Below are positions 50,873 through 55,560 of a DNA stretch of 64,000 nt, in pieces. The DNA comes from an uncultured Holophagaceae bacterium. GTDB taxonomy: Bacteria; Acidobacteriota; Holophagae; Holophagales; Holophagaceae. Where the stretch lies: assembly GCA_903937385.1 (NCBI GenBank), contig CAIZZF010000015.1, forward strand, positions 124,001-188,000, given 5' to 3'. The number at the start of each line of letters is the position of its first letter. The first letter of the stretch is position 1. The position numbers and the translations under genes are program-made. The notes below the pieces were generated by a model. That model did not search any database. It saw nothing but the letters and a program-made list of their open reading frames with translations, and was not told where the DNA came from.

Positions 50873-51030
50873 CCTACCCTTCCCCGGGGCCGAATGGCCC
50901 GCGAATCCCCTCCCGGTCGAGCCGGGGCGGCCATCCCAACCCTTGGCAACGATATGGTTTTTCAACTTCCAAAAGGATCGTAAGCCAATTCATGATGAGT
51001 TCATCAGCTATAGTTCAAACAGACACCGAT

Positions 51031-51049
51031 CCGGTGGTCAGACCACTGG
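51031..51049 (+). promoter_or_regulatory. Palindromic hairpin in the dcuB leader
   Basis: CCGGTGGT/ACCACTGG pair over 8 bp (one G.T) with loop CAG, 12 nt before the ribosome-binding AAGGAG. It could be an operator or an RNA hairpin controlling dcuB. The AT-richer stretch 50960-51025 upstream is the likely promoter. Confidence 0.45.
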
Positions 51050-51074
51050 GTCCTGCTCCCAAGGAGAGTCCCCT

Positions 51075-52409
51075 ATGTCCCCCGCCTTGATGTTCTGGAT
51101 CCAGTTCGTGCTCGTGTTGGGCGCCATCCTGATCGGCATCCGCAAGGGCGGTGTCGCCCTGGGGCTGATCGGCGGCTGCGGTGTGGCGGTGCTGGTCTTC
51201 GGGTTCCGCGTGGCACCGGGGACGCCCCCCATCGACGTGATGCTGATCATCCTGGCCGTGGTCACCGCCTCGGCGACCCTGCAGGTCTCGGGTGGTCTCG
51301 ACTATCTGGTCCAGCTCACGGAGCGCCTGCTGCGCGCCCACCCGAAGTACGTGACCATCCTCGCCCCGCTCTCCACCTTCTTCCTCACGGTCTGCGTCGG
51401 CACCGGCCACGCGGTCTACGCCCTGCTGCCGGTCATCTCCGACGTGGCCCTGAAGACCCGCATCCGGCCCGAGCGGCCCATGGCCATCTCCAGCGTCGCC
51501 TCCCAGATGGGCATCACGGCCAGCCCCGTGGCGGCCGCCGTCACCACCTTCCTGGCCATGGCCGCCAAGAACGGGCATCCGGTGGGCCTCTTCGACATCA
51601 TCCGCATCACCCTGCCCGCGGGCATCATCGGCGTGCTGGTCGCCGCAGCCTGGAGCTTCAACCGTGGCCTCGACCTCGACAAGGATCCCGAATACCTCGA
51701 GCGCCTGAAGGACCCCGACTTCGCCAAGGCCCTGGATGCCAATGTCACCACCCTGGACAAGGTGATCCCCACCTCGGCCAAGCTCGCCGTGGGCCTGTTC
51801 TTCGCGGGCGTCCTCGCCATCATCCTCGTCGCCATGAAGCCCGGCCTGCTGCCCCTGGTGAACGGCAAGCCCGTGCCCATGACCACCGTGGTGCAGATGG
51901 TCATGCTGGCCTTCGGCAGCTTCATCCTCTTCGCCACCAAGGTGAAGGCTCCCGAGATCGCCCGCTCCAGCGTCTTCATCGCGGGCATGATCGCCGTCGT
52001 CTCCATCTTCGGCATCGCCTGGATGAGCGAGACCTTCATCAAGGCCAACGAGAGCTACCTCATCGCCAACATCAAGACCATGGTGCAGATGGCCCCCTGG
52101 ACCTTCGCCCTCGCCATGTTCGCCGTGTCCGCCTTCGTAAAGAGCCAGGCCGCCACGCTGACCATCATGCTGCCCTTCGGCTACGCCCTGGGCCTGCCCA
52201 CCCCCCTGCTGCTGAGCCTGATCCCCGCCAGCTACGCCTACTTCTTCTTCGCCTTCTACCCCAGCGATCTGGCCGCCATCAACATGGACCGCACGGGCAC
52301 CACGCGGATCGGCAAGTACCTCCTCAACCACAGCTTCATGATCCCCGGCCTCATCGGGGTCGGCACCTCCACCGTCGTCGCCTACGGCCTGTCGAAGCTC
52401 TTCGCCTAG
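51075..52409 (+). CDS. dcuB: Anaerobic C4-dicarboxylate antiporter (DcuA/DcuB family)
   Basis: A 444-residue inner-membrane carrier with ten or more helices. It matches the Dcu family closely: RKGGVALGLIGG, TPPIDVMLIILAVVTASATLQVSGGLDYL, FFLTVCVGTGHAVYALLPVI, RPERPMAISSVASQMGITASPVAAA, and near the end PSDLAAINMDRTGTTRIGKYLLNHSFMIPGLIGV. It exchanges fumarate, malate or aspartate for succinate in anaerobic respiration. AAGGAG is 8 nt before ATG 51075. Convergent with the DASS gene. Confidence 0.93.
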   Translation: MSPALMFWIQFVLVLGAILIGIRKGGVALGLIGGCGVAVLVFGFRVAPGTPPIDVMLIILAVVTASATLQVSGGLDYLVQLTERLLRAHPKYVTILAPLSTFFLTVCVGTGHAVYALLPVISDVALKTRIRPERPMAISSVASQMGITASPVAAAVTTFLAMAAKNGHPVGLFDIIRITLPAGIIGVLVAAAWSFNRGLDLDKDPEYLERLKDPDFAKALDANVTTLDKVIPTSAKLAVGLFFAGVLAIILVAMKPGLLPLVNGKPVPMTTVVQMVMLAFGSFILFATKVKAPEIARSSVFIAGMIAVVSIFGIAWMSETFIKANESYLIANIKTMVQMAPWTFALAMFAVSAFVKSQAATLTIMLPFGYALGLPTPLLLSLIPASYAYFFFAFYPSDLAAINMDRTGTTRIGKYLLNHSFMIPGLIGVGTSTVVAYGLSKLFA

Positions 52410-52472: not shown

Positions 52473-54236
52473 CTACCAGAGGCCCAGCACCTTCCACCAG
52501 ATGCCGCCGACGCCAACCCATATGACGATGTTCACGACGCTGATCAGCAGCCCCATGCGCCACCAGGTGCCCAGCTCCACATAGCCCGTGCCGAAGAGCA
52601 CCGGCGCGGGACCGGTCCCGTAGTGGGTCATGCCCGCGAAGAGGTTGCTGAAGAAGGCCAGCACCAGCGCAGCCAGCACCGGCGGGGCGCCCGCAGCAAT
52701 GGAGACCCCCAGGAAGGCCGCATACATCGAAGCCACGTGCGCCGTGTTGCTGGCGAAGAAGTAGTGGCTGTAGAAGTACACCAGGGCCAGCACCAGGAAG
52801 GCCACGAGCCAGCCCTTGCCAGCCACCATGCCGCCCATGGACTTGCTGAACCAGGGCACCATGCCGAGCTTGTTGAGGAAGCTGGCCATCATCACCAGGG
52901 CCGCGAACCACACGAGGGTGTCCCAGGCGCCGGTCTCGTTCTTGATGTCGTCCCAGTTCAGGACGCCCGTGAGCAGCAGCACCGCCAGACCCGCCAGGGC
53001 GGAGGTGGTGGCGTTGATGTCCCCCAGCTGCTTGGCGAAGATCCACAGCACCAGCAGCATCACAAAGACGCCAAGCATCATCCACTCCTGGCGCTTGATG
53101 GGTCCCAGGTCGCGGAGGTGGCCCTTGGCCATTTCCACGGCCTCGGGGGTCTCGGTGATCTCCGGGCGCATGAGCTTGTAGACCAGGAGGGGCACCAGGA
53201 TCAGGGCCACGAGGCCCGGCACCAGGGCTGCCAGGGCCCAGCCGCCCCAGGTGATGGTCACCTTGAGGTCGCCCGCCAGCTTCTGAGCCAGGGGGTTGGC
53301 GGCCATGGCCGTGAGGAACATGGCGCTGGTGATGCAGTTCACCTGGTAGGCCGTGAGCGTCAGGAAGGCGCCCATCTTCTTCGCACTGGCATCGCCCGGA
53401 TGGCTGCCGTAGGCCCGGGCCAGGGAGGCCATGATGGGCATGATGATGCCGCCGCCCCGGGCCGTGTTGCTGGGAATGGCTGGGGAGAGCACCAGGTCCG
53501 TGGCCGCCAGGCCGTAGCTCAGGCCGAGGGTGCGCCGACCCAGGAGGGCCATGAAGCTGTAGGCGATGCGGGCCCCGAGGCCCGTCTTGATGAAGCCTCG
53601 GGAGATGAAGAAGGCCAGGACGATGAGCCAGATCACCACGTCCGAGAAGCCGCTCATGGAGTCCGCGATGCTGAGGGTGCCCGAGAGGGCCGTCACGGCG
53701 ATGCCGATCATGGCCACGGCGCCCATGGGCAGGGCCTTCATGATGATGCCGGCGATGGTGGTGACGAAGATGGCGAAGAGGTGGAGGCCCTTCACCCAGT
53801 CGGCCTTCCGCTTGACCTCGGCGTCCGCCTTGACCTTGGCATCCGCCTTGGCGTCCGCCTCGGCCTTCACCTTGGCATCGGCCTCAGCCTTCAGCTTGGC
53901 TGTCGCCTCGGCCTTGGCCTTCACCTCGGCTTCCGCCTTGGCCTTTGCTTCGGCCTGGGCCTTGGTCAGCGGCTTGGCAGGCGCGGCGGCCACGGCTGGC
54001 GCGGGAGCGGCCTTGGCCTCAGGCTTCGCGGCCGGCTTGGCCGCCGGTGCCGCGGGCTTCGCCGCCACAGGCTGTCCCGTGAACAGCTTCGCGTCTGGTA
54101 CGGACACCACATTCGGCAAGCCGAAGTAGAGCACCAGACCCAGGGCCAGGGTGGCCAGGGCTTGAAGGGGTTTAGCGCCTTGCCAACCGGGCAGGCCTCC
54201 GGCGGGCGAGGTTTCTGGAAGAGCGTTTTGGCTCAT
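52473..54236 (-). CDS. DASS-family (SLC13/CitT-like) dicarboxylate transporter with TolA-like periplasmic insert
   Basis: A 587-residue inner-membrane carrier. TM1 is at about 24-41. After VVSVPD, residues about 58-146 are an inserted Pro/Ala hinge and a regular Ala/Lys/Glu/Asp helix (AEAKAKAEAEVKAK-type repeats). The normal DASS sequence resumes at about 148 with WVKGLHLFAIFVTTIAGIIM, which matches the second helix of CitT and plant DiT1. Family motifs SPAIPSNTARGGGI and FASNTAHVASM follow. The insert sits exactly in the TM1-TM2 loop, and its composition is like TolA domain II. GGAGG precedes the ATG. Likely substrates are 2-oxoglutarate, malate, citrate or tartrate. Confidence 0.88.
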   Translation of the reverse strand: MSQNALPETSPAGGLPGWQGAKPLQALATLALGLVLYFGLPNVVSVPDAKLFTGQPVAAKPAAPAAKPAAKPEAKAAPAPAVAAAPAKPLTKAQAEAKAKAEAEVKAKAEATAKLKAEADAKVKAEADAKADAKVKADAEVKRKADWVKGLHLFAIFVTTIAGIIMKALPMGAVAMIGIAVTALSGTLSIADSMSGFSDVVIWLIVLAFFISRGFIKTGLGARIAYSFMALLGRRTLGLSYGLAATDLVLSPAIPSNTARGGGIIMPIMASLARAYGSHPGDASAKKMGAFLTLTAYQVNCITSAMFLTAMAANPLAQKLAGDLKVTITWGGWALAALVPGLVALILVPLLVYKLMRPEITETPEAVEMAKGHLRDLGPIKRQEWMMLGVFVMLLVLWIFAKQLGDINATTSALAGLAVLLLTGVLNWDDIKNETGAWDTLVWFAALVMMASFLNKLGMVPWFSKSMGGMVAGKGWLVAFLVLALVYFYSHYFFASNTAHVASMYAAFLGVSIAAGAPPVLAALVLAFFSNLFAGMTHYGTGPAPVLFGTGYVELGTWWRMGLLISVVNIVIWVGVGGIWWKVLGLW

Positions 54237-54317: not shown

Positions 54318-54375
54318 TGAAGCCAATTCAGCGCTTTTTAGCGGCTGATAATTGTTTCTTCAAAGGAGGTTCAAC

Positions 54376-55431
54376 ATGCGTGATCTGAGGATCGCGGTCA
54401 TTCCCGGCGATGGCATCGGCAAGGAAGTCGTGCCGGAGGGCATCCGCGTGCTGGAAGCCGCCGCCGCGAAGCACGGCCTGCGTTTCCGCTGGGATGAGTT
54501 CCCCTGGAGCTGCGAGCAGTATCTCGAGACCGGCCGCATGATGCCCGAGGACGGCCTGGACCAGATCCGCCACCACGATGCGATCTTCCTGGGCGCCGTC
54601 GGGTTCCCGGGGGTGCCGGACCACATCTCCCTCTGGGGTCTGCTCATCCCCATCCGCCGAGGCTTCCGCCAATACGCCAACCTGCGCCCCGTGAAGCTCA
54701 TGCCCGGCGTGCCCTGCCCCCTGGCGGGCCGGCAGGTGGGCGACATCGACTTCATCGTCGTGCGGGAGAACAACGAGGGCGAGTACTCCAGCATCGGTGG
54801 GCGCCTCTACGAAGGCACGGACCAGGAGATGGCCGTGCAGCAGAGCGTCTTCACCCGCCAGGGCGTGGACCGCATCCTGAAGGTGGCCTTCGACATCGCC
54901 CAGTCGCGGCCCAAGAAGCACCTCACCTCGGCCACCAAGTCCAACGGCATCGCCATCACCATGCCCTACTGGGATGAGCGCGTGAAGGCCATGTCCGCGG
55001 CCTATCCCGAGGTGAAGGTGGACCAGTTCCATGTGGACATCCTCACGGCCCACTTCGTGCGGAACCCCCACTGGTTCGATGTGGTGGTGGGCTCCAACCT
55101 CTTCGGGGACATCCTCTCGGACCTGGGCCCCGCCTGCACCGGCACCATCGCCATCGCGCCCAGCGCGAACCTGAACCCCGAGCGGGAGTATCCCTCCATG
55201 TTCGAACCCGTCCACGGCTCGGCGCCGGACATCTACGGCAAGGGCATCGCCAACCCCATCGGCCAGATCTGGGCCGGGGCCATGATGCTCGACCACCTCG
55301 GCTGCCCCGAGGCCGGGGCCTCGGTCATGGCCGCCATCGAGAAGGTGCTGGCCACCGGTCCGCGCACCCCCGACATGGGCGGCACCGCCAGCACCAAAGA
55401 GCTCGGCCAGGCCATCGCGGACGCGGTGTAA
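54376..55431 (+). CDS. Tartrate dehydrogenase / D-malate dehydrogenase (decarboxylating)
   Basis: A 351-residue member of the isocitrate/isopropylmalate dehydrogenase family. It has IAVIPGDGIGKEV, the substrate-loop sequence LWGLLIPIRRGFRQYANLRPVK (tartrate/D-malate type), VRENNEGEYSSIGG, KSNGIAITMPYWDE, SNLFGDILSDLG and EPVHGSAPDIYGKG. It oxidises and decarboxylates D-malate to pyruvate, or tartrate to oxaloglycolate. AAAGGAGG (54363-54370) sets ATG 54376. It diverges from the DASS transporter, forming a dicarboxylate module with dcuB. Confidence 0.9.
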   Translation: MRDLRIAVIPGDGIGKEVVPEGIRVLEAAAAKHGLRFRWDEFPWSCEQYLETGRMMPEDGLDQIRHHDAIFLGAVGFPGVPDHISLWGLLIPIRRGFRQYANLRPVKLMPGVPCPLAGRQVGDIDFIVVRENNEGEYSSIGGRLYEGTDQEMAVQQSVFTRQGVDRILKVAFDIAQSRPKKHLTSATKSNGIAITMPYWDERVKAMSAAYPEVKVDQFHVDILTAHFVRNPHWFDVVVGSNLFGDILSDLGPACTGTIAIAPSANLNPEREYPSMFEPVHGSAPDIYGKGIANPIGQIWAGAMMLDHLGCPEAGASVMAAIEKVLATGPRTPDMGGTASTKELGQAIADAV

Positions 55432-55451: not shown

Positions 55452-55514
55452 GCCACCAAGACACCAAGAACTGCAAAGCGGTATTTCTTCTGCTTTTCTT
55501 GGTGTCTTGGTGGC
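55452..55514. repeat. 19-bp perfect inverted repeat (CACCAAGACACC type)
   Basis: GCCACCAAGACACCAAGAA (55452-55470) and its exact complement (55496-55514) flank a 25-nt centre. It lies between the convergent dehydrogenase gene and mazG, where it could act as a terminator. Sequences of this kind recur between genes in many unrelated bacteria, so it is probably a mobile or dispersed repeat. Confidence 0.8.
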
Positions 55515-55560
55515 TTGGTGGTTAATTTATTGGTTGTTTTCGAAAAGGAGAACAGCCTCC

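Follow-up and report, generated by a model that had tools for sequence, protein, structure and literature searches.

A charged, Ala-rich segment inserted between the first two transmembrane helices (TM1 and TM2) of a DASS-family carrier is genuine: it adds a structural element to an established carrier family, is specific to one lineage of soil and sediment bacteria, and has a constrained charge pattern. The carrier gene lies in the window, a stretch of 64,000 nucleotides from an uncultured Holophagaceae bacterium. We give about even chances to the reading that the scaffold domain of a DASS exchanger bears this segment as a rigid mast in the periplasm, with a docking or positioning role.

Family and exchanger type of the carrier

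The carrier ORF starts with an ATG at position 54236, with a GGAGG motif a few bases 5′ of the start codon. Profile searches matched PF00939 over residues 149–587 (E 8.5e-155, 516.8 bits against a cut-off of 27) and TIGR00785 over residues 151–581 (E 2e-124, 415.7 bits against a cut-off of 198.6), above the curated cut-offs across the whole symporter domain, which upheld the initial annotation of the protein as a DASS carrier. Both matches begin directly after the insert. The nearest solved structures by sequence were those of plant chloroplast DiT1 (9mcr, E 3.5e-138) and DiT2.1 (9mcu), followed by LaINDY. An AlphaFold2 model of the window carrier (48 sequences, mean pLDDT 86.5) aligned with AtDiT2.1 9mcu with a Z of 52.2 and an rmsd of 1.3 over 469 residues, and with VcINDY 5uld with a Z of 32.2; in the model the DASS fold is kept, a structure alignment that rules out no family.

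In the exchangers of this family, Arg159, His392 and His401 (LaINDY numbering) substitute for Na1 and Na2 (PMC7553777). R260, H491 and H500 of the carrier align with these residues, all three matches being consistent with chain indices that differ from the published numbering by 3 throughout, and they were invariant or nearly so. Because of this match, the carrier is predicted to be of the exchanger (antiporter) type, and the signature residues make it most likely a dicarboxylate exchanger of the DASS-E subgroup. It shares its family, fold and exchanger Arg/His signature with DiT1/DiT2.1 (9mcr, 9mcu), LaINDY (6wtw) and the CitT/TtdT-type DASS exchangers.

Anatomy and predicted structure of the insert

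The alignment with DiT1 covered residues 16–39 (TM1 with its WQGA motif, weak alone) and 152–587. Only about 11 residues lie between TM1 and TM2 in DiT1, whereas about 100 separate them in the window carrier, and residues 55–146 of these, about 91, are extra (positions 53799–54074, minus strand). The DiT1 alignment, the short loop of insert-less relatives (such as PAPEGVDIKAWHLLAIF) and the AlphaFold2 positions of TM1 and TM2 agree on this placement. The initial annotation had located the insert at this point of the same ORF and had described it as a Pro/Ala hinge followed by an (AK/AE/AD)n run, and both its coordinates and the order of linker and charged run were borne out (Table 1).

Table 1. 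Features of the carrier and its neighbouring genes in the window
Feature	Position	Strand	Basis and remarks
Anaerobic C4-dicarboxylate transporter (DcuA/DcuB, PF03605), convergent neighbour	50931..52409, start approximate	+	Kept in most Geothrix group-A loci
DASS-family dicarboxylate exchanger (most likely), 587 aa	52473..54236	-	PF00939 and TIGR00785 profiles; match to AtDiT2.1 9mcu
TM2, residues 147–165, predicted direct continuation of the charged helix	53742..53798	-	AlphaFold2; start of PF00939 homology
Charged helix (predicted), residues 92–146, unit A-K-A-K-A-E/D-A-E/D	53799..53963	-	AlphaFold2 helix; charge pattern tests
Pro/Ala/Lys-rich linker, residues 55–91	53964..54074	-	Low pLDDT; variable length among relatives; net positive
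TM1, residues 23–43	54108..54170	-	AlphaFold2 helix 23–43; weak alignment to the DiT1 'PWQGA' TM1
Tartrate dehydrogenase family (TIGR02089), divergent neighbour	54352..55431	+	Profile match; beside the carrier in most group-A loci

In the AlphaFold2 model of the window carrier, residues 92–165 formed a single unbroken helix that includes TM2 (pLDDT blocks of 77–95), and the linker (residues 53–91) was predicted to be disordered, with pLDDT blocks of 44–57 over most of its length. Insert-bearing carriers form two groups, the orthologues of the window copy (group A) and a paralogue (group B), and the group-B protein L077, modelled separately, likewise gave a helix (residues 106–175) and a disordered linker. 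The long helix was therefore predicted in both groups, and a long helix kept in relatives is what the initial annotation had named as support for its proposal. At 0.15 nm per residue, the part of the helix ahead of TM2 would measure ~8 nm (55 residues in group A, about 49 in group B, some 50–56 overall). The segment is predicted to be helical in the cell, from a method that tends to render Ala/Lys/Glu-rich segments as long helices.

Distribution and origin

In a family sample of 77 genomes of Geothrix and relatives, the insert was carried by the group-A orthologues (82–95% identical) and by the group-B paralogues (about 59–65%), a few of them with a short form, and the genome of the window encodes a gene of each group. 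The segment was in frame in about 40 family-member genes from many assemblies, which ruled out an assembly artefact or a frameshift and, together with the charge pattern, a chance occurrence. DASS relatives without the insert, 50–69% identical in the core, were found in several phyla, among them Gemmatimonadota, Bacteroidota, Chloroflexota and Acidobacteriota. A tree was built from 74 cores with the insert columns omitted (quick method, LG+G4, SH-aLRT support only); in it, the 37 insert-bearing rows made up one side of a branch with a support of 95, requiring one change of state; on this sequence tree, the insert is gained once.

A short charged segment of about 14–38 residues was found in L068, L069–L071, L074, L082 and L107, placed low in both groups, and the helix would either have lengthened independently in the two lines, starting from a short version, or have shrunk several times. 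L107 and L070 came from MAGs labelled Granulicella and Opitutaceae, labels that may reflect transfer or misbinning. The initial annotation had named close relatives lacking the segment as evidence against its proposal; these exist in part, the segment being absent at 50–69% identity and short in a few nearer members. It was also observed that L087 and L089, DASS proteins in Chloroflexota- and Balneolota-labelled MAGs of the same sediment series, grouped closely as sisters on the tree, a placement that points to transfer or misbinning.

The eight-residue unit of the helix, counted by DNA pattern, occurred six times in the 3.68 Mb of the carrier's own genome: five times in the two DASS genes and once, as a single unit, in a NuoC-like gene. 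Tandem copies were present only in the two DASS paralogues, and with five of the six occurrences in these genes a genome-wide low-complexity habit was ruled out. In the genomes of relatives the motif was found mostly in the two corresponding DASS genes. Apart from these, the NuoC-like subunit (G000:C26:219210, L168) has a Lys/Glu/Ala- and Pro-rich stretch around its one copy, and some Geothrix genomes (L177, L179) carry a single copy in the vicinity of genes for multihaem cytochrome-like proteins and Rrf2-like regulators, where it may belong to a small secreted protein.

Constraint on the charge pattern

The group-A helix is an eight-residue repeat, (AKAKAEAE)n, with the column classes h+h+h−h−. 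A generic AK/AE/AD helix had been described initially; the charged, Ala-alternating segment stood, and the generic mix gave way to a narrower, strict eight-residue unit (++−−). Helices were aligned right-anchored on the D-W preceding TM2, and the gap-free sets comprised 17 group-A and 12 group-B genes, excluding a few sequences with 4–6 extra residues, namely the window copy, which has an extra half unit in its repeat, and a few close kin. Among the 17 group-A genes, 26 of the 54 columns were charged in at least 70% of the rows, none with both signs, and wrong-sign charged residues amounted to 0 of 433 in group A and 3 of 292 in group B. Pairs at i,i+4 were opposite in 22 cases and like in none in both L014 and L022 (21 opposite and 2 like in the window copy), a pairing reached in 0–2 of 20,000 shuffles of the charges among the charged positions. 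By sequence, the opposite i,i+4 charges running along 40 or more residues are those of a charged single alpha-helix, and the alternation of Ala and charge in ++−− order is that of an EAK16-type repeat.

Substitutions pointed in the same direction. Lys was replaced by Arg in 13 sequences and by Glu in none, both being single transitions. At the charged columns of group A, 28 distinct departures were counted, for which 3.4–7.4 sign changes would be expected under neutral one-step change; the probability of observing none went from 0.025 to 0.00015 for transition biases from 1 to 4, values that are approximate, the sequences being related. The pN/pS ratio was 0.27 (A) and 0.38 (B) in the helix, and 0.13 (A) and 0.19 (B) in the core; synonymous divergence was also greater in the helix than in the core. 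DNA repeats were detectable in the segment, and the repeat units differ in DNA (mean identity of 49–74%) yet keep their charges, so that the units seem to turn over in DNA while the protein pattern stays. The linker varied from about 34 to 59 residues across members, with a mostly constant helix length. In all members examined the net charge of the insert was positive (+5 to +9 in long forms, +1 and +3 in short ones), the linker alone contributing about +4 to +8 and the helix alone about 0 to +3. The charge pattern of the helix appears to be kept by selection at the protein level.

Membrane side and reach of the insert

The LaINDY scaffold is composed of TM1–4 and TM7–9, and its TM3–TM4 insertion, close to the dimer interface, projects on the periplasmic side (PMC7553777). 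The TM1–TM2 and TM3–TM4 loops lie on the same side by parity, and the loop bearing the insert is therefore predicted to be periplasmic. The TM3–TM4 loop of the carrier (residues 185–199) lacks Lys and Arg, and the stretch after TM4 is basic (R213, K217, R223, R234 and R235), which agrees with a periplasmic side by the positive-inside rule. The periplasmic loop that the initial annotation had made a premise of its proposal was thus supported by both LaINDY homology and charge distribution.

The further idea that this loop resembles TolA domain II and spans the periplasm did not hold. The likeness was one of composition only: the tolA_full profile scored 17.8 bits against a cut-off of 59.45, in the low-complexity middle only, the protein continues as a DASS carrier and does not qualify as a TolA, and the repeat is of the EAK16 type instead. 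TolA/TonB domain II is similarly an Ala/charged or Pro-rich periplasmic segment following a TM helix, but the DASS insert has no globular end domain, is tethered to the membrane at both ends, is too short and has another repeat. The width of the periplasm is generally about 20 nm or greater. TolA domain II comprises 110–335 residues (PMC12204202). Set against these dimensions, a helix of 50–56 residues (~8 nm) in a two-ended loop would therefore fall short of the outer membrane; the insert could reach towards the wall, and a TolA-like span is unlikely. In the best TolA/TonB-like protein of the same genome the middle part is rich in Gly, Ala, Ser and Thr and lacks a helix of this kind, which ruled out borrowing from the genome's own TolA. 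A coiled coil with a heptad seam was also discarded, as judged by eye, large hydrophobic residues being sparse in group A and not arranged in heptads.

Comparison with known systems

In the literature on DASS carriers that was searched, no report of a TM1–TM2 insert of this kind was found, and the only other insertion found was the periplasmic extrusion of LaINDY, which is placed between TM3 and TM4 (PMC7553777). By analogy, the nearest precedent for a periplasmic mast would be Rv1410/MHAS2168, carriers of the MFS. In Rv1410, TM11 and TM12 extend beyond the membrane by about 2 nm on the periplasmic side, and transport depends on them; the helix length of these extensions is conserved and their loop variable, and the proposal is that they direct lipid towards LprG, the partner protein (PMC10576003). 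TM helices extended into the periplasm, with helix length kept and a variable loop, are thus common to both cases, as is a proposed role in placing or feeding a partner, encoded in the same operon in the Rv1410 case. However, the fold is different, and extensions of about 2 nm with hydrophobic patches contrast with a charged mast of about 8 nm.

The EAK16 segment of zuotin is built from the identical unit of eight residues, AEAEAKAK, whose charges likewise pair at i,i+4, and the EAK16 peptide (AEAEAKAKAEAEAKAK) forms beta-sheet at neutral pH and is helical under other conditions (PMC2387071). Zuotin is, however, a eukaryotic co-chaperone, no homology is claimed, and it is as an isolated peptide that the repeat adopts beta-sheet. 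Charged single alpha-helices (SAHs) are longer than 40 residues, Lys/Glu-rich and provided with i,i+4-pairable charges (PMC5347031), all of which applies to the DASS helix by sequence, but half of its residues are Ala, more than in experimentally proven SAHs.

Gene neighbourhoods

Since the tartrate dehydrogenase and DcuA/DcuB neighbours are kept, exchange of tartrate or D-malate is proposed for the window copy, and these genes suggest succinate or a like acid as the counter-substrate. Neither a porin nor a binding protein of the group-B kind was found in the neighbourhood of group-A loci. Between the dehydrogenase and MazG-like genes, at positions 55454–55520, lies an intergenic inverted repeat built on CACCAAGACACCAAGA; this 16-mer has 13 exact copies in the genome, and two sites are inverted pairs 43 bases apart.

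The group-B paralogue belongs to a conserved cluster (G000:C8:498000-511000 (L181), L076–L081 and L183–L189) of two divergent gene sets. One strand encodes a TctE-type histidine kinase (2CSK_N), a response regulator and an NMT1-like binding protein; the opposite strand encodes a porin, DASS-B, a class III CoA-transferase and an HMGL-like lyase. The porin was directly upstream of DASS-B on the same strand in all but two of the loci examined, the exceptions being L082, with a short helix, and L182 (genome G036), with a full one; the CoA-transferase and lyase genes lie behind DASS-B in most porin-bearing loci. The cluster resembles a regulated pathway that imports and degrades a branched dicarboxylate, such as 3-hydroxy-3-methylglutarate, citramalate or itaconate. 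A hetero coiled coil between the tip of the group-B helix and the N-terminal coil of the porin was considered and dropped, the hydrophobic residues of the tip not being kept in all porin-bearing loci. The porin adjacency is the sole evidence tying the mast to an outer-membrane channel and is circumstantial; the channel suggested at the outset as a partner thus has a candidate beside the paralogue in most loci, but no porin lies near the window copy.

Proposed role and alternative explanations

In the proposed arrangement, TM2 would extend past the membrane surface by some 50–56 residues (~8 nm) as a single alpha-helix, stiffened by Lys–Glu/Asp salt bridges four residues apart, and the flexible, positive Pro/Ala/Lys linker would return the chain to TM1. 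Each subunit of the homodimer would bear one mast next to the outer gate, attached to the portion that is immobile during transport; since the scaffold is static in the elevator mechanism, a mast on TM2 need not block transport. The mast would position the carrier or dock a partner in the periplasm or on the wall; for the paralogue, this partner might be the porin or the binding protein of the cluster. By analogy, docking or positioning is the most likely role, held with moderate to low confidence. The full helix length is probably not essential for transport as such, because some members have only a short helix. Counted against the mast are these short forms, the missing porin and binding protein near group A, a helix pN/pS above that of the core (0.27 vs 0.13), the extra half unit of the window copy, the high Ala content and the tendency of AlphaFold2 to draw such segments as helices. 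The more specific version, in which the exchanger engages a periplasmic or outer-membrane partner through a docking arm (in group B, the porin or the NMT1-like binding protein), is distinctly unlikely.

An unlikely alternative is that the positive loop collects dianionic substrates in the vicinity of the outer gate, or binds to anionic lipid or polymers of the wall, with no specific partner. The net positive insert of all members examined would fit such a function, as would the charge of the linker alone, and in VcINDY a lipid of the periplasmic leaflet touches TM1, TM2 and HPouta (PMC7553777), so the base of the mast would be near the outer gate. Nevertheless, a charge cloud needs neither an exact ++−− register nor constancy of sign, and the helix itself is nearly balanced. 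The insert could also be a neutral or nearly neutral low-complexity passenger, arisen when a 24-base repeat slipped within a loop that tolerates change, as the length variation between lineages, the DNA repeats, the variable linker and the elevated pN/pS and synonymous divergence of the helix would allow. This is made very unlikely by the zero sign changes of group A, where Lys and Glu are a single transition apart and 3.4–7.4 changes were expected, by units that differ in DNA and not in charge, and by a segment present in both paralogues that is not a habit of the genome.

It is strongly doubtful that the helix couples the carrier to an outer-membrane porin in the manner of TolA, with substrate passed across the periplasm. 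The same-strand porin directly upstream in nearly all long-insert group-B loci examined (L076–L081, L181, L183–L189), and its lack in the flanks of the short-helix L082, speak for such coupling; the limited extent of a loop tethered at both ends (about 8 nm) and the lack of a globular tip domain speak against it, and the helix is kept without a nearby porin in group A and without any porin found in G036 (L182). Finally, the repeats of adjacent carriers might form beta-sheets or helix bundles and so cluster the transporters, given that the repeat equals the EAK16 unit, which forms beta-sheet at neutral pH (PMC2387071), and that designed helices rich in Ala are prone to association (PMC5347031). 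A lone helix is nevertheless favoured by the unbroken run into TM2 and by the i,i+4 salt bridges, and both AlphaFold2 models are helical, which makes this assembly highly improbable.

Returning to the rigid periplasmic mast, if the structure prediction holds, the carrier would offer a natural, selected EAK16 repeat in the form of a long helix continuous with a transmembrane one. Orthologues with a long, a short or no mast would then provide a clean, testable case for the role of such an appendage on a secondary transporter. Moreover, if the docking arm were true, a secondary carrier without TRAP-like subunits would work within an envelope-wide uptake assembly.
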